Below are positions 4,828 through 33,717 of a DNA stretch of 64,000 bases, piece after piece; the stretch's first letter is position 1; every line of letters starts with the position of its first letter. The DNA is from Chryseobacterium sp. RU37D. GTDB lineage: Bacteria > Bacteroidota > Bacteroidia > Flavobacteriales > Weeksellaceae. Below the pieces are notes generated by a model. That model saw only the letters and a program-made list of their open reading frames with translations. It was not told the DNA's origin and searched no databases. The stretch spans positions 124,001-188,000 of the forward strand of contig NZ_FTMM01000001.1 in NCBI RefSeq assembly GCF_900156075.1. The letters are read 5' to 3'. A program made the position numbers and the translations under genes.

Positions 4828-4914
4828 CAATTTGAAAGTTTGAAAATTTGAAAATGATTTATTATCATATCTTTTTTAATTTTCAAATTAACAAATTCCC
4901 AAATTTTCAAATTA
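4828..4914. repeat. Inverted repeat of TTTGAAAATTTG units between pdhA and pdhC
   Basis: The left arm (about 4828-4857) repeats AATTTGAAAGTTTGAAAAT. The right arm (about 4878-4914) carries the complementary AATTTTCAAATT and CCCAAATTTTCAAATT. The two can fold into a long AT-rich hairpin in the intercistronic mRNA. It may tune the E1alpha:E2 ratio or stabilise a transcript; this is inference. Confidence 0.6.
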
Positions 4915-4923
4915 AAAAAAATT

Positions 4924-6534
4924 ATGGCAGAAGTTATTACAATGCCACGTCTTTCCGATACAATGACGGAAGGTAAAGTGGCTAAATGGCATAAAAAAGT
5001 AGGAGATAAAGTAAAGGAAGGTGATATTTTAGCTGAAATTGAAACCGATAAAGCCGTTCAGGATTTCGAATCTGAGATGGAAGGTACTCTTTTATACATA
5101 GGTGTAGAAGAAGGCAGTGCCGCTGCTGTAGATTCTGTTTTGGCTATTATCGGTAATGAAGGGGAAGATATTTCTGGTTTAACAGGAGGAGCTGTTGCTT
5201 CCAGTACAACTGAAGAGAAAAAAGAAGAGCCTAAAGCAGAAACTAATGCTGCTCCGGTACAAGCTTCGGCTGAAGTTCCTGCAGGAGTAGAAGTGATTAC
5301 AATGCCTAGACTTTCTGATACAATGACAGAAGGTAAAGTGGCGAAATGGCACAAAAATGTAGGTGATACAGTGAAAGAAGGAGATCTTCTTGCTGAGATC
5401 GAAACCGATAAAGCCGTTCAGGATTTCGAATCTGAATTCAACGGAGTATTATTAAAGCAAGGTGTTGAAGAAGGCGGAGCTGCTCCGGTGGATTCAGTTT
5501 TAGCAATGATTGGCCCTGCAGGAACAGACGTTTCAGGAGTAGGAGCTGCAAAGCCAGCGGCTGCTTCATCAGAAAAACCTGCTGAACAAAAAGCAGAAGC
5601 GAAAACAGAAGAAAAACAATCAACTAACAACCAACAACAATCGGCAACTAGCAATAACGACAGAGTAGCAATTTCTCCATTAGCTAAGAAAATGGCTCAG
5701 GATAAAGGTGTTGATATTCATTCTGTACAAGGTTCTGGTGAAAATGGAAGAATTGTTAAAAAAGATATTGAAAATTATCAGCCATCTGCAAAACCAACAG
5801 TTCCAGCTCCGGCTGCAAGTCCTGCTGCTCAAGTTGCATTAAACTTTGTACAAGGTGAAGATACAGAAACTCCAAATTCGCAAGTAAGAAACATAATCGC
5901 GAAACGCCTTTCTGAAAGTAAATTCTCCGCCCCTCACTATTATCTGATGGTTGAAATCAACATGGATAAAGCAATTGAGGCTAGAAAAGAGATCAATTCT
6001 TTACCAGATACCAAAATTTCTTTCAACGATATGATCATTAAAGCGACTGCAATTGCTTTAAGAAAACATCCGCAGGTGAATTCAAGCTGGGCAGGTGACA
6101 AGATCATCCACAGAGGAAATATTAACGTTGGGGTTGCAGTAGCTATCCCTGATGGATTGGTAGTTCCGGTATTGAAGAATACAGATCAAATGTCTTACAC
6201 TCAGATTTCTGCTGCTGTAAAAGACATGGCCGGAAGAGCTAAGAATAAAGGTCTTAAAGCAAACGAAATGGAAGGTTCTACATTCTCAATCTCTAATCTA
6301 GGAATGTTTGGGATTGAAACATTTACAAGTATCATTAATCAGCCAAACTCTGCCATCCTTTCGGTAGGAGCAATTATCGAAAAACCGATTGTAAAAGACG
6401 GCCAGATAGTAGTTGGAAATACCATGAAGCTTTCATTGGCTTGTGACCACAGAGTGGTAGACGGTGCTACAGGTGCTCAGTTCTTACAAACTTTAAAAAC
6501 ATATTTAGAAAGCCCATTAACTTTGTTACTGTAA
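4924..6534 (+). CDS. pdhC: Dihydrolipoamide acetyltransferase, E2 of pyruvate dehydrogenase
   Basis: A 536-residue core subunit of the pyruvate dehydrogenase complex; it transfers the acetyl group to CoA. Two N-terminal lipoyl domains (about 1-77 and 122-198) each carry ETDKA with the lipoylated Lys at 43 and 163. Ala/Pro/Glu-rich linkers separate them. The peripheral-subunit-binding domain is at about 246-282 (ISPLAKKMAQDKG, NGRIVKKDI). The catalytic domain fills residues 310-536 and ends with DHRVVDG, active-site His 509. The two lipoyl domains are near copies of each other (ITMPRLSDTMTEGKVAKWHK in both), a recent internal duplication or gene conversion. A terminator follows. Confidence 0.97.
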   Translation: MAEVITMPRLSDTMTEGKVAKWHKKVGDKVKEGDILAEIETDKAVQDFESEMEGTLLYIGVEEGSAAAVDSVLAIIGNEGEDISGLTGGAVASSTTEEKKEEPKAETNAAPVQASAEVPAGVEVITMPRLSDTMTEGKVAKWHKNVGDTVKEGDLLAEIETDKAVQDFESEFNGVLLKQGVEEGGAAPVDSVLAMIGPAGTDVSGVGAAKPAAASSEKPAEQKAEAKTEEKQSTNNQQQSATSNNDRVAISPLAKKMAQDKGVDIHSVQGSGENGRIVKKDIENYQPSAKPTVPAPAASPAAQVALNFVQGEDTETPNSQVRNIIAKRLSESKFSAPHYYLMVEINMDKAIEARKEINSLPDTKISFNDMIIKATAIALRKHPQVNSSWAGDKIIHRGNINVGVAVAIPDGLVVPVLKNTDQMSYTQISAAVKDMAGRAKNKGLKANEMEGSTFSISNLGMFGIETFTSIINQPNSAILSVGAIIEKPIVKDGQIVVGNTMKLSLACDHRVVDGATGAQFLQTLKTYLESPLTLLL

Positions 6535-27676: not shown

Positions 27677-29464
27677 CTAATAAGCTCCTTTATTGATGTA
27701 ATGTGCAGCGATTTTCTCTGTCAATGCCACTACATTCGGATGATTGGTATATTTTGTAAATCTTCTAAGGCCGGAAAGCATCATTCTCTGCTCGTCGCCT
27801 TCAGCGAAAGAAACGATTCCTTCTTTTGCTGCCACGATAATTTTTTCAACCGCCTTGTAAAGGTTTAGCTGGGCCATTGCCGCTTCCACAGATTCTGATG
27901 AGAAATGCTTTTCTGCTCTCAAAATTGCAGATTCTGCCATGTAGATTTGGTTAAGAATTTCAGAAGCATTCAATAACAAATGCTGTTGTTTCTCAATATC
28001 TATCATATATTTTTGAAGAGCCGCACCTGAAACCATTAAGAAAACTTTCTTAAGATTAGCAATAATTGCTTTTTCTTCGCTCATAAAAGCTGAATAATCC
28101 GGAACTTCAAATGACGGAATTCCCATCAGTTCTTTGCTGATCGCCATTGCTGGAGACAATAAGTCTAGTTCTCCTTTCATTGCTCTCTTGATCAACATTC
28201 CTACGGCCAGCAATCTGTTGATCTCATTGGTTCCTTCATAAATTCTTGAAATTCTTGAGTCTCTCCAGGCAGCTTCCATTGGCGTGTCTTCAGAGAATCC
28301 CATTCCTCCGTACACTTGAATTCCTTCATCTGCTGTATGTTGAGCCAAATCTGAAACAAAAACTTTAAGAATTGAACATTCAACGGCAAATTCTTCAACA
28401 CCTTTCAATTCTGCAGCCTGATGGTCCATTCCTTCGGCAACCAGTTCATCAATTTTATCCTGGATATTTTTCGCCGCTCTGTACGAACCTGCCTCACTTA
28501 CAAAAACGCCGGTTGCCATTTCAGCAATTTTCTTTCTGATTGCTCCAAAAGTCGAAATCGAAACTCCAAACTGCTTTCTTTCGTTAGAATATTGAATAGA
28601 GTGGTTTAAAATTCTTCTCTGCGCATCCAGACAAGCAGCTGCTAATTTAATACGGCCAACATTTAATGCATTTAAAGCGATTTTAAAGCCGTTATTTCTT
28701 TCACCTAAAAGATTCTCAACAGGAATTTTCATATCATTAAAGAAAACCTGACGGGTAGAAGATGCACGAATACCCAACTTGTGTTCTTCCTCACCGAAAG
28801 TTAAGCTTTTAGGGTTTTCCAGTTCGGAACGGTTAATAACAAAACCTGTAATGTTTTTATCATCATCAATTTTTGCAAATAATGTAAAAGTATCTGCAAA
28901 TCCTGCGTTTGAAATCCACATTTTCTGTCCGTTGATGATATAATGTTTTCCATCTTCAGAAAGTTTTGCTCTTGTTTTTCCTGAGTTGGCATCAGAACCT
29001 GCATCAGGTTCAGTTAAGCAATATGCTCCGAATTTTGTTCCTGCTGCTAAATCGGGAAGATATTTTTGCTTTTGAGCTTCTGTTCCATACAGAACAATTG
29101 GCAAAGTTCCGATTCCTGTGTGAGCTCCGTAAGCTGTTGCTAATGAACCGGTAACACCTGAAATGTAGTCACAGGCCAGCATGGTGGTCACGAATTCCAT
29201 TCCAAGCCCTCCGTAGTTTTCAGGAACGGCAATTCCCAAAAGTCCCATTTCACCAAGCTTACGCATTACTTCTTCAGTAAAGCCGTAATCTTTTTTCTCA
29301 AAGCGTTCTTTTTGCGGAACAACTTCTCTATCAATAAATTCTTTCGCAGAGTCGCGAAGCATTTTTTGTTCTTCAGAAAGTTCTTCCAAAGAGAAGATTT
29401 CATTAGCTTGAATTTCTTTTATTAAAAACTCACCTCCTTTCAATGTTTTATTAAGTGTAGTCAT
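27677..29464 (-). CDS. Acyl-CoA dehydrogenase
   Basis: A 595-residue flavoprotein that introduces the alpha-beta double bond in fatty acyl-CoA, the first step of beta-oxidation. The N-terminal helical domain includes FIDREVVPQKERFEKKDYGF. The central domain has CLTEPDAGSDANSGKTRA and KMWISNAGFAD. The C-terminal FAD domain has GGMGFSEDTPMEAAWRDSR followed by ISRIYEGTNEINR. About 150 further C-terminal residues make it longer than classic 380-residue enzymes, which is normal for this Bacteroidetes subgroup. Last gene of a fad operon, 17 nt after the thiolase; a terminator follows. Confidence 0.95.
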   Translation of the reverse strand: MTTLNKTLKGGEFLIKEIQANEIFSLEELSEEQKMLRDSAKEFIDREVVPQKERFEKKDYGFTEEVMRKLGEMGLLGIAVPENYGGLGMEFVTTMLACDYISGVTGSLATAYGAHTGIGTLPIVLYGTEAQKQKYLPDLAAGTKFGAYCLTEPDAGSDANSGKTRAKLSEDGKHYIINGQKMWISNAGFADTFTLFAKIDDDKNITGFVINRSELENPKSLTFGEEEHKLGIRASSTRQVFFNDMKIPVENLLGERNNGFKIALNALNVGRIKLAAACLDAQRRILNHSIQYSNERKQFGVSISTFGAIRKKIAEMATGVFVSEAGSYRAAKNIQDKIDELVAEGMDHQAAELKGVEEFAVECSILKVFVSDLAQHTADEGIQVYGGMGFSEDTPMEAAWRDSRISRIYEGTNEINRLLAVGMLIKRAMKGELDLLSPAMAISKELMGIPSFEVPDYSAFMSEEKAIIANLKKVFLMVSGAALQKYMIDIEKQQHLLLNASEILNQIYMAESAILRAEKHFSSESVEAAMAQLNLYKAVEKIIVAAKEGIVSFAEGDEQRMMLSGLRRFTKYTNHPNVVALTEKIAAHYINKGAY

Positions 29465-29481
29465 TATATTTTGTATTTTAG

Positions 29482-30663
29482 TTATAATAATTCAAAAATT
29501 GAAGCAGCACCTTGTCCTGTTCCGACACACATAGAAACCATACCGTATTTGTTTCCGCGTTTTCTCATTTCGTCAAGAAGCTGAACGGTTAATTTTGTTC
29601 CTGTACATCCAAGTGGATGACCAAGTGCAATTGCTCCTCCGTTAACATTTAAAATCTCAGGATTTAAGCCTAATTCTTTTTTAATGGCAACAGATTGAGA
29701 TGCGAATGCTTCGTTTAATTCTATTAATTCAATATCTTTTAATTCTAAACCTGCTTGTTTTAATGCTTTTGGAATCGCATAAATCGGTCCCATTCCCATG
29801 ATTCTTGGCTCAAGACCTGCTGCAGCATAAGCTACTAATCTGGCTTCTGGTTCAATACCTAATTCTTTCACCATTTCTTCGCTCATTACCATTACGAAAG
29901 CTGCTCCGTCACTCATTTGAGAAGAGTTTCCGGCTGTTACGCTTCCTCCGTTGGCAAAAACGGGTCTTAATTTAGCTAAACCAGCCAAAGAAGTATCTGC
30001 TCTTGGACCTTCATCTACTGAAAAATCAAACTTTTTAGTCTGCATTTTCTGGTTTTCATCCAAGAAATTGTATTCAACAGGAATTGGAACAATCTGGTTA
30101 GCAAATCTGCCTTCCTGATTGGCTTTTAAAGCTTTCATATGAGATTCAAAAGCGAACTGATCTTGTTCTTCTCTTGTAATTTTGTACTGTTTCGCCACTT
30201 CTTCCGCAGTGTAACCCATTCCCCAATAATAATCAGGATTGGTTTTGGCAATATCTGTTTCAGGAACAGGTTTGTAACCACCCATTGGAATGTAAGACAT
30301 TGATTCTGTACCTCCGGCGATAATGCAATCCGCCATTCCTGCCTGAATTTTTGCAGAAGCAATCGCAATTGCCTCACTTCCTGAAGCGCAATATCTGTTC
30401 ACCGTAACTCCGGGAACTTTGTCTGTATTTAAACCCATTAAGGAAATCAAACGTGCCACGTTCAAGCCTTGTTCAGCTTCTGGCATTGCATTTCCTACGA
30501 TAAGGTCATCGATTCTGTTTTTGTCTAATTGCGGAAGTTCAGCCATTAATTTTTCAATCACGGTTGCCGCCATTACATCGGGTCTTGTAAATCTTAAACT
30601 TCCTTTTGGAGCTTTTCCAACGGCAGTTCTGAAACCCTTTACTATATATGCTTGTTTTGACAT
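29482..30663 (-). CDS. fadA: Acetyl-CoA C-acyltransferase (3-ketoacyl-CoA thiolase)
   Basis: A 393-residue thiolase that cleaves 3-ketoacyl-CoA with CoA, the last step of beta-oxidation. The acyl-accepting Cys92 is in NRYCASGSEA, the active-site His349 in GHPLG, and the second Cys379 in SMCVGTGQG. Length is typical. It lies between the RAYT element and the acyl-CoA dehydrogenase gene, all on the minus strand. The 660 nt between fadB and fadA are occupied by the inserted RAYT/REP unit, with no terminator visible. Confidence 0.95.
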   Translation of the reverse strand: MSKQAYIVKGFRTAVGKAPKGSLRFTRPDVMAATVIEKLMAELPQLDKNRIDDLIVGNAMPEAEQGLNVARLISLMGLNTDKVPGVTVNRYCASGSEAIAIASAKIQAGMADCIIAGGTESMSYIPMGGYKPVPETDIAKTNPDYYWGMGYTAEEVAKQYKITREEQDQFAFESHMKALKANQEGRFANQIVPIPVEYNFLDENQKMQTKKFDFSVDEGPRADTSLAGLAKLRPVFANGGSVTAGNSSQMSDGAAFVMVMSEEMVKELGIEPEARLVAYAAAGLEPRIMGMGPIYAIPKALKQAGLELKDIELIELNEAFASQSVAIKKELGLNPEILNVNGGAIALGHPLGCTGTKLTVQLLDEMRKRGNKYGMVSMCVGTGQGAASIFELL

Positions 30664-30698: not shown

Positions 30699-30774
30699 GC
30701 CTCGTAGAGGTAAACTGTTCATAGCTTTTTTGTTTTGCAATATGTGCGGAGCTCCGTAGGAGCGACCTGTTAAT
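30699..30774. repeat. Two REP-like units on the 3' side of the RAYT gene
   Basis: Unit L1 (30699-30724) is the palindrome GCCTCGTAGAGG with tail TAAACTGTTCAT. Unit L2 (30746-30774) is GCGGAGCTCCGTAGGAGC with tail GACCTGTTAAT. The tail of L2 contains the RAYT stop codon in complement. The same palindromes and tails recur in reverse orientation at 31239-31322. Confidence 0.75.
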
Positions 30775-31234
30775 CTTCAATCCACTCAAATAAATATTTC
30801 GGATCATATTCAATTTCAAATTTTGACATAAAATCCAAATATTCTTCTTGAAATGTTTTCTTTTTATGATGTTCTTCTTGATTTAAAATATATTTAACAA
30901 CAGAATCTAAACTGCTTTTAGAATAGGAAAAAGCTCCGTATCCTTCCTGCCAATTAAATTTTCCATTCATCCATCCTTTTTCATTAATGAATTTTGATGA
31001 ACCTGCTTTAATATCTCTTACTAAATCTGAAATTGAAACTGTTGGACTCATACTTACAAGAATATGTACATGATCCGGCATTGCAAAAACTGCGAATAAT
31101 TTTTGACTTCTATGAGAAATAATACCTGTAATAAATTTATGTAATTCTTCTCTATTTTCTTTTGAAATCAGATTTTGTCTTCCTTTGACAGCGAAAACAA
31201 TTTGAATATAAATTTGTGTGTATGTATTTGCCAT
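30770..31234 (-). mobile_element. IS200/IS605-like REP-associated tyrosine transposase (RAYT)
   Basis: A 154-residue HUH-type Y1 transposase. The HUH motif is His55-Val-His57 in MPDHVHILVS. The catalytic tyrosine is probably Tyr115 in SVVKYILNQEEHH, after WQEGYGAFSYS. The C-terminal EYDPKYLFEW is common in Bacteroidetes TnpA-like proteins. All catalytic residues appear intact. It sits within the fad operon in the same direction and is bracketed by four REP-like units, the arrangement known for RAYTs that act on REP sequences rather than moving as ordinary insertion sequences. No accessory tnpB gene is present. Confidence 0.85.
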
Positions 31235-31238
31235 AAAA

Positions 31239-31322
31239 ATTAACAGGTCGCCTCTACGAGGCTCGACTCGATGTTTTCTAAAATTATTCTGCTATTAACA
31301 GTTCGCTCCTACGGAGCTCGCC
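31239..31322. repeat. Two REP-like units on the 5' side of the RAYT gene
   Basis: Unit R1 (31239-31265) is ATTAACAGGTCGCCTCTACG then AGGCTCG, the reverse complement of palindrome GCCTCGTAGAGGC with tail GACCTGTTAAT. Unit R2 (31292-31322) is CTATTAACAGTTCGCTCC then TACGGAGCTCG, the reverse of the GAGCTCCGTAGGAGC type. R1 ends 4 nt before the RAYT ATG; R2 abuts the fadB stop codon. Confidence 0.75.
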
Positions 31323-31323
31323 A

Positions 31324-33717
31324 TTAATTTCTCAACGGTTTACCATTTTGTAACATATACTGAATTCTCTCCAATGTTTTTCTTTCACCACAAAGTTGCA
31401 AGAACGTCTCTCTTTCAAGATTCAATAAATATTGTTCCGTAACGACTGTAGGTTCAGAAAGATTTCCGCCGACCATAACGTTGGCTAACTTATCTGCAAT
31501 CTTTTTGTCGTGTTCAGAGATGTAATTTCCGGTTAACATCTGGTCGGTTCCAACATAGAACATTCCTAATGCATCTTTACCCAAAACTTTTACTCGTTGC
31601 TCAATTGGTTGAGTATACCCTTGTTCTGCCAATAATTTGGCTACCTTTTTAGCCTCAGCAATCTGTCTGTTTTTGCTTACAGAAACGATATCTTTTCCTT
31701 TTTCAAGAATTCCCATATCATAGGCTTCATAAGCAGAAGTTGCCACTTTACCCATTGCGATATTCATAAAAGCTTCACGAAGTCTGTTATTTTTTACATC
31801 ATCGTTGTGGAATTCTCTTGACGTTCTCAAAGTCAATTCTTTCGTTCCGCCACCACCAGGAATTACACCAACTCCGGTTTCAACCAATCCGATGTAAGTT
31901 TCTGCAGCTGCAACCACTCGGTCGGCATGCATTGTCATTTCGCAACCACCACCAAGCGTCATTCCGTGAGGAGCAACGACTACAGGAATAGAGGAGTAGC
32001 GAACTCTCATCATGGATTTTTGGAAGTAAGCAATTGCCATGTTCAAATCATCCCAATCCTGTTCGATTGCCATCATTAAAATCATGGCTAAATTGGCTCC
32101 AACAGAGAAATTAGTCGCTTGGTTTCCAATCACTAATCCGTCATATTCTTTTTCAGCTAAATCAATGGCTCTGTTTAATCCATCCAACACTTCACCTCCC
32201 AAAGAGTTCATTTTAGAACGGATCTCGAAGTTGATAATTCCGTCACCTAAATCTTCAATCGCTGCACCGGAATTGCTCCAAAGCGTTTTATTTTTTCTTA
32301 TATTATCTAAAATAATGAAAGCATCCTGACCAGGAATTTTTTTATAATCACGGGAATTTTTATCAACATAAATGCTTTGTCCTTCATCATTTACTTTATA
32401 GAAAGTCTCCACATGCTGCACCCAGTCTGAAACTTGGTAACCGGCTTCTGTAGCCAATTCAATACCTTTTTGAACACCGACTGCATCCCAAATTTCAAAT
32501 GGTCCGTTTTCCCAACCGAAACCGGCTTTCATCGCATCATCAATTTTGTAGATGTCATCAGAAATTTCCGGAACTTTATGAGAAACATAAGCGAATAATG
32601 CCCCCAACGATTTTCTGTACAATTCTCCAGCCTTGTCTTTTCCGCCAATTAAGACTTTGAATCTGTCAATTGGTTTGTCTATATTTTTAGTTAATTCTAA
32701 AGTCGGAAAAGAAGATTTTCCTTGAAGCTCGTATTCTAAAGTATCAAGATTCAACCCGTGAATTTCAGATTTTCCTTCAGTATTTTTCACTTTTTTGTAG
32801 AACCCTTGCTCTGTTTTTGAACCTAACCATTTATTATCAATCATTTTCTGGATGTAATCAGGAAGTGCAAAAACATTGTTGAAATCATTTGCTTCGGCAC
32901 CGCTCTGGCGAACACCATTTGCTACCATCACCAAAGTATCCAAACCAACAACATCAGCAGTTCTGAACGTCGCAGATTTTGGACGACCAATCACAGGACC
33001 AGTTAATTTATCAACTTCAGAAACCGTTAAACCTAATTTCTGAACGTTGTGAAGCAAATCCATCATTGAAAATACTCCGATTCTGTTCGCAATAAATGCA
33101 GGAGTATCTTTTGCCAAAACCGTTGTTTTTCCTAAGAATTTAGCACCGTAATTCATGTAAAAATCAATGATTTCCGGAAGTGTGTCGTTTGTTGGAATAA
33201 TCTCTAAAAGAGGAAGATATCTCACAGGATTAAAAAAATGCGTTCCTGCAAAATAATGTTTAAAATCCTCGCTTCTTCCTTCCGTTAAAAAATGGATTGG
33301 AATCCCCGATGTATTAGAAGAAATCAACGTTCCCGGCTTTCTGAATTGTTCGATTTTTTCGTAGACTGATTTTTTGATGTCAAGTCTTTCAACTACAACT
33401 TCAATGATCCAGTCTGTATTTTTTATTTTTGGTAAATCATCATCAAAATTTCCAACCTTAATTCTATCTGCGAATTTAGGAGAATAGAGTAGTGCCGGAC
33501 TTGCTTTTTTGAGTTTTTCAAAGTTTTCCGCAGCGATTCTGTTTCTTACTGCTTTATCATCTTTGGTCAAACCTTTTTTCTGTTCCATTTCATTCAGTTC
33601 AAAAGGAACGATATCCAGAAGCGACACCTGGACTCCGATGTTGGCAAAGTGCGCCGCGATACCACTTCCCATAATTCCTGAACCTAGAACCGTAACATGT
33701 TTGATTCTTCTTTTCAT
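31324..33717 (-). CDS. fadB: 3-hydroxyacyl-CoA dehydrogenase / enoyl-CoA hydratase (FadB/FadN-like)
   Basis: A 797-residue bifunctional beta-oxidation enzyme with the dehydrogenase domain first. NAD binding is at GSGIMGSGIAAHF (12-24), the 3HCDH core includes GTHFFNPVRYLPLLEIIPT, and the dehydrogenase C-terminal domains include KDTPAFIANRIG. The crotonase-like domain is in the last third, with VAPHGMTLGGGCEMTMHADR and GLVETGVGVIPGGGGTKE. The order dehydrogenase then hydratase is that of FadN, the reverse of E. coli FadB. It follows the MarR regulator gene and precedes fadA, with a RAYT between. Confidence 0.95.
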   Translation of the reverse strand: MKRRIKHVTVLGSGIMGSGIAAHFANIGVQVSLLDIVPFELNEMEQKKGLTKDDKAVRNRIAAENFEKLKKASPALLYSPKFADRIKVGNFDDDLPKIKNTDWIIEVVVERLDIKKSVYEKIEQFRKPGTLISSNTSGIPIHFLTEGRSEDFKHYFAGTHFFNPVRYLPLLEIIPTNDTLPEIIDFYMNYGAKFLGKTTVLAKDTPAFIANRIGVFSMMDLLHNVQKLGLTVSEVDKLTGPVIGRPKSATFRTADVVGLDTLVMVANGVRQSGAEANDFNNVFALPDYIQKMIDNKWLGSKTEQGFYKKVKNTEGKSEIHGLNLDTLEYELQGKSSFPTLELTKNIDKPIDRFKVLIGGKDKAGELYRKSLGALFAYVSHKVPEISDDIYKIDDAMKAGFGWENGPFEIWDAVGVQKGIELATEAGYQVSDWVQHVETFYKVNDEGQSIYVDKNSRDYKKIPGQDAFIILDNIRKNKTLWSNSGAAIEDLGDGIINFEIRSKMNSLGGEVLDGLNRAIDLAEKEYDGLVIGNQATNFSVGANLAMILMMAIEQDWDDLNMAIAYFQKSMMRVRYSSIPVVVAPHGMTLGGGCEMTMHADRVVAAAETYIGLVETGVGVIPGGGGTKELTLRTSREFHNDDVKNNRLREAFMNIAMGKVATSAYEAYDMGILEKGKDIVSVSKNRQIAEAKKVAKLLAEQGYTQPIEQRVKVLGKDALGMFYVGTDQMLTGNYISEHDKKIADKLANVMVGGNLSEPTVVTEQYLLNLERETFLQLCGERKTLERIQYMLQNGKPLRN

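Follow-up and report, generated by a model that had tools for sequence, protein, structure and literature searches.

What kind of system is formed by a small single-strand DNA transposase gene and the hairpins around it when both lie inside a fatty-acid-breakdown operon? In Chryseobacterium sp. RU37D, and likewise in many relatives, such a gene, tnpA, is located between two fatty-acid-breakdown genes. We analyzed the locus in a stretch of 64,000 nucleotides, referred to here as the window; the features are listed in Table 1. An earlier note on this DNA had described tnpA as a RAYT transposase gene bracketed by four units, each a palindrome joined to a tail, and had read the whole as a flavobacterial REPtron.

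Table 1. The tnpA locus of RU37D: genes and flanking units (positions in the window)
Feature	Description	Position	Strand
tnpA	Y1/HUH transposase-like nuclease, 154 aa, TnpA_Y1 subclass 1.2	30770..31234	-
fadB	3-hydroxyacyl-CoA dehydrogenase/enoyl-CoA hydratase; host gene upstream of tnpA	31324..33717	-
fadA	thiolase; host gene downstream of tnpA	29482..30663	-
acyl-CoA dehydrogenase gene	next operon gene after fadA	27677..29464	-
outer left unit	stem-loop GCTCCGTAGGAGC (31305-31317) and outer-type tail GAACTGTTAATAG (31292-31304)	31292..31317	-
inner left unit	stem-loop GCCTCGTAGAGGC (31250-31262) and inner-type tail GACCTGTTAAT (31239-31249)	31239..31262	-
inner right unit	stem-loop GCTCCGTAGGAGC (30751-30763) and inner-type tail GACCTGTTAAT (30764-30774)	30751..30774	+
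outer right unit	stem-loop GCCTCGTAGAGGT (30699-30711) and outer-type tail AAACTGTTCATAG (30712-30724)	30699..30724	+

All four units were found where the earlier note had placed them. In each, a 5-bp stem closes a 3-nt GTA loop, and the adjoining tail has CTGTT as its core. The details of the earlier description were also confirmed: all four tails are directed at tnpA, both stem types are present on the left and on the right, the tnpA stop codon (30770-30772) lies inside the tail at 30764-30774, and a few bases separate the fadB stop from the outer left unit. A further rule, absent from that description, is that the tail class is set by position, the inner tails being GACCTGTTAAT and the outer tails A-ACTGTT(A/C)ATAG. 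Weeksellaceae follow this rule and so, for the most part, does Flavobacterium, even though the two groups have the left stems GCTCC and GCCTC in exchanged positions. The 5' flank of a unit is GA, AA, or TA, or GGTC or GTTC in the opposite reading. An inverted repeat of ~25 nt around tnpA is made up of the outer left unit and the inner right unit.

We compared the occurrence of the units with that of controls. A 25-nt unit pattern, searched with up to 3 mismatches, matched 67/98 genus genomes, and the reversed-pattern control matched 0/98. In three sets of homologues (77 loci), perfect GC-rich hairpins were present beside tnpA at about 1-2.4 per 250 bp but elsewhere in the same loci at only 0.09-0.31 per 250 bp. 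Hairpins flanked tnpA on both sides in 21/22, 25/27, and 17/28 loci of the three identity bands, and a stem common to both sides was present in 18/22, 22/27, and 13/28 loci, respectively (53/77), versus 2/1331 control pairs. When units were selected by the tail only, with the stem unused, 165 of the 197 distinct contexts were preceded by a perfect 5-bp stem, compared with 0-1 in shifted registers. The paired stems of these tail-selected units were of 7 sequence types. As all seven are paired, these results indicate that both arms of the stem have changed in sequence without loss of pairing.

We examined the class and fold of the protein. In its motifs (DHVH, WQ, and YILNQEEHH), TnpA agrees with TnpA_Y1 subclass 1.2 as given in Table 1 of PMC6006769, and H55, H57, W95, Q96, Y115, Q119, and H123 were invariant in an alignment of 17 diverse homologues. 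TnpA matches Pfam PF01797 (Y1_Tnp) and passes the NCBIfam IS200 model NF033573 (73.5 bits, cut-off 55), but fails the RAYT model NF047646 (37.3 bits, cut-off 80). The predicted structure (pLDDT 90) was closest to the TnpA proteins of ISDra2 and IS608 (Z about 12); E. coli TnpA_REP 4ER8 came next (Z 10.5). The name RAYT used in the earlier note therefore fails in the strict sense, and membership in the classical RAYTs (class 2) was rejected on the Y motif (YILNQ, not Y..NP), the model score, and the absence of the GTAG foot from the hairpins. The RU37D genome contains 4 Y1 genes, all with a Y motif of the subclass 1.2 type, and the other three are 36-51% identical to the window TnpA; the low copy number and diverged paralogues of subclass 1.2 are thus both found in RU37D. 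Each of these three genes has its own flanking inverted hairpins, different in sequence from the tnpA units, and a search with one pattern for a dispersed family of the paralogue at L004 gave one poor match only. Subclass 1.2 has been published as low-copy, not IS-like, without REPs, and generally without terminal structures (PMC6006769), where "no REPs" is a reported observation and not part of the definition. From this published picture tnpA departs, in that inverted hairpin units flank most of its homologues. No reports of repeats for subclass 1.2 were found in our searches of the literature available without subscription.

Pattern searches of the RU37D genome, a check proposed in the earlier note, detected units also between pyrB and carA and near a 5S rRNA-like sequence. 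Restriction of the units to the tnpA locus, which the note had named as refuting its reading, is therefore false. At pyrB-carA, the number of units varied from 0 to several among 27 genomes. This spacer (L204-L230) also holds at least three other palindrome families besides the GACCTGTTAAT units: CCATGGGTGAAACCCATGG, TGTAC-rich inverted repeats without an ORF, and CCCCTCC...GGAGGGG...GACGGGGTGG. At contig ends (L008 and L009, 1440-1560), unit-like hairpins adjoin a GGCAAATA tandem repeat near a probable 5S rRNA sequence. Other genomes contain tandem arrays of units with periods of 51 bp, 102 bp, and about 145 bp. One of them, G082 (L192, L193), carries an array of ~17 units with the 51-bp period and, at fadB-fadA, an array of alternating GCTCC and GCCTC units immediately upstream of tnpA.

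Besides single units and tandem arrays, there is a well-defined element of 155-161 bp that reads ATTAACAGGTC-stem ... stem-GACCTGTTAAT and encloses two outward-pointing units of the outer type. Its unit order, <I <O O> I> (I, inner type; O, outer type), is that around tnpA (O> I> gene <I <O) turned inside out. We collected 17 sequenced copies at 8 distinct loci. At ubiB-DUF2256, the element was present in the genus genomes G041 and G093 and in the other-family genome G330 (L271), left a remnant in G009, and was absent from 21 other genus genomes; downstream of a dipeptidase gene, it was found in 4/30 loci compared and in three further genomes. Some copies at different loci (L184-L187, L261-L272) are alike beyond the core as well, with the flanks TCTGATTAAATCAAAGCATA and TCATGCCGTAAATATTGATATTTTCAATG at opposite sides, and there may be a larger composite repeat that includes these flanks. 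A search for a TGTCCGATAAAA-like terminal inverted repeat at the outer edges of the element gave only two copies that clearly exceeded shuffles. No precise empty site of the element was found at the two loci examined, the flanking spacers being too diverged, and neither a precise empty site nor a target rule was found for any unit.

By pattern searches, from which all genome-wide unit counts derive, the units numbered 0-33 per genome, which is low for a REP family. Units besides the two of tnpA itself were present in 35/39 genomes with tnpA, and any unit in 24/55 genomes without it, counts that ignore relatedness among the genomes. The units could have been moved or amplified by something else, such as another transposase, replication slippage, or recombination, with tnpA carrying some of them by chance. 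The 24 genomes that have units without a tnpA ortholog are consistent with this explanation, as are the 51-bp and about 145-bp arrays, which resemble slippage products, and the flanking sequence common to some of the ~160-bp copies. However, the units are commoner in genomes with tnpA, within one genome the subclass 1.2 paralogues are flanked by inverted hairpins distinct from those of tnpA, and the tail class tracks position relative to tnpA in two families. We consider such a mover unlikely.

The fadB-fadA junction was compared in 24 genus genomes, RU37D counted. The earlier note had proposed this comparison and had named identical presence in all relatives as the mark of an ordinary IS; the junction proved to be polymorphic. 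The element was present in 6 genomes, unit remnants without the gene in 2 (L099, L116), a four-helix-bundle ORF flanked by inverted repeats of its own in 14, another ORF in 1 (L115), and neither of the two elements in 1 (L096). One of these four-helix-bundle ORFs was tested and belongs to the 23S_rRNA_IVP family (PF05635). In other families of the order, fadB and fadA are mostly separated by a short spacer. The junction is an old, repeatedly used site and not one of recent insertion.

Several observations concern the other small genes of this region. A 23S_rRNA_IVP-like ORF replaces tnpA at fadB-fadA in L095, L100-L107, L110-L112, L114, L117, and L123, flanked by repeats of several families (types TGTAAAATGTA..., TTAGA..., and GACTTGAGA...). 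ORFs of this kind were also observed between fadA and the acyl-CoA dehydrogenase gene (L018, L020, L025, L037, L046, L047, L058). In Flavobacterium flevense (L042, ~4836-5000), fadB is followed by the initial codons of a broken four-helix-bundle ORF and then by the outer left unit, as if one small element had inserted into another.

We also traced the inheritance of tnpA. The gene is at fadB-fadA in 40/80 of the nearest homologue loci, spread over two families, with the remaining homologues elsewhere; the carriers at this junction are Chryseobacterium, Kaistella, Epilithonimonas bovis, Amniculibacterium, a few MAGs, and ten genomes of the Flavobacterium group. An ortholog (≥83% identity) was present as a single copy in 39/98 genus genomes and as two copies in none. 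Within Chryseobacterium, dN/dS of tnpA was about 0.1, which corresponds to purifying selection. Distances of tnpA tracked those of fadA and fadB (rho 0.42-0.57 within Chryseobacterium and 0.71-0.81 over all; 0.46-0.78 with fadB), and 0/500 permutations gave values as high. The residence at a single locus, the dN/dS, and the correlation of distances indicate that tnpA has mostly been inherited in place and retained by selection. A recent insertion between fadB and fadA lacks support, as the gene resides there in two families and its history is mostly vertical. Synonymous divergence of tnpA was about half that of fadA and fadB, and its GC content was 29%, compared with 39-42% for its neighbours; the AT-rich composition may account for part of the low synonymous divergence and occasional horizontal exchange for the rest. 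Among phage and plasmid records, no close relative was found except for one 61% match on a Bernardetia plasmid.

These data bear on whether the locus is an ordinary insertion sequence of the IS200 family with two hairpins per end, the dispersed units being its decayed copies. TnpA does pass the IS200 model, its nearest structures are those of IS608 and ISDra2, and L099 and L116 hold unit-only remnants at fadB-fadA. By contrast, there is one ortholog per genome (39/98) and never two near-identical copies, 40/80 homologues lie at the same locus, the units are inverted across tnpA, unlike the ends of IS200/IS605, and the dispersed copies show the inside-out order <I <O O> I>, not that of end-to-end remnants. 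An ordinary IS is in our judgment quite unlikely. That the hairpins act chiefly as RNA elements of the fad operon (terminators or stabilizers), kept for regulation, is very improbable: the RNA fold of the fadB-fadA region is more stable than shuffles (z -5.4, 20 shuffles) and the inverted repeat around tnpA would suit such a role, but many relatives lack units at fadB-fadA, units also occur at unrelated sites such as pyrB-carA and ubiB-DUF2256, and an Rfam search matched no family.

The best explanation, which we consider probable, is that an IS200-class (TnpA_Y1 subclass 1.2) single-strand nuclease underlies a REPtron-like system that has probably been domesticated. The REPtron of the earlier note is thus retained as far as the Y1/HUH enzyme, the inverted REPtron-like units, and the dispersed gene-less units are concerned, and is given up as a RAYT in the strict sense. 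By analogy with studied relatives (PMC8266576, PMC6006769), TnpA would bind a unit as a hairpin on single-stranded DNA. It would then cut via Tyr115 in the conserved CTGTT tail, probably at CT, as a CT 3' of the stem is the cut point of studied TnpA_REP enzymes. Remaining joined through Tyr115, it could paste unit-bounded single strands elsewhere, which would spread the units as small inside-out elements and arrays. The inside-out order would fit a product in which two unit pairs had been joined by their outer sides. Meanwhile, tnpA itself would remain at one locus and be inherited with it, or be lost, leaving unit remnants. The hairpins lie in the presumed fad transcript, and, as this region folds more stably than shuffles, an effect on fadA expression is possible. 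Against this REPtron-like explanation stand the units in 24 genomes without the ortholog and the flanks shared by some copies, and the involvement of another mobiliser is possible. The low copy number, the negative searches for a precise empty site or a target rule, and the synonymous divergence of tnpA, about half that of its neighbours, also weigh against it.

We compared the system with those already known. Like TnpA_Y1 subclass 1.2 (PMC6006769), it has DH[IV]H, WQ, and Y---Q--HH motifs in a protein of ~150 aa, occurs in Bacteroidota, and is low in copy with diverged paralogues; unlike the published subclass, its tnpA is bracketed by inverted hairpin units that are also found elsewhere in the genome. 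With the RAYT/TnpA_REP REPtrons of E. coli, Stenotrophomonas, and Pseudomonas, it shares a single gene with inverted hairpin flanks, dispersed units without the gene, and vertical inheritance (PMC2817692, PMC8266576). In S. maltophilia, too, the REPs form perfect palindromes around a 3-nt loop, and they are cut at a CT (PMC2817692, PMC8266576). It differs from RAYT REPtrons in having a class 1 and not a class 2 protein, no GTAG or GTGG at the hairpin foot, 5-bp stems, two position-specific tail classes, and a low copy number. The protein class, the fold, and the hairpins adjoining the gene are like those of IS200/IS605 (IS608, ISDra2), whereas the lack of near-identical multiple copies and of an adjacent tnpB, the inverted four-unit bracket, and the long residence of tnpA at a single locus are not. 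The ~160-bp element resembles REPINs/BIMEs and MITEs in being small and non-autonomous, with inverted units and a conserved length, but its four units are ordered inside-out relative to the tnpA bracket.

The element is best classed neither as a classical RAYT nor as an ordinary IS. We tentatively propose, at somewhat less than even confidence, that it represents a second kind of REPtron, in which a subclass 1.2 nuclease recognizes two tail classes, holds a fixed four-unit bracket, and spreads inside-out four-unit miniatures, while its gene stays for very long at a single junction in a metabolic operon, to which other small selfish genes are drawn as well. For subclass 1.2, which had been described without repeats or IS behavior, the units provide candidate substrates with which its activity can be tested directly. 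The hairpin grammar here differs from that of RAYTs, with no GTAG foot and with a conserved tail that adjoins the stem on one side. These results suggest that the partnership with REPs arose, or persisted, on both sides of the divide between IS200 and RAYT, and fadB-fadA is a junction at which different small selfish genes replace one another across the genus.
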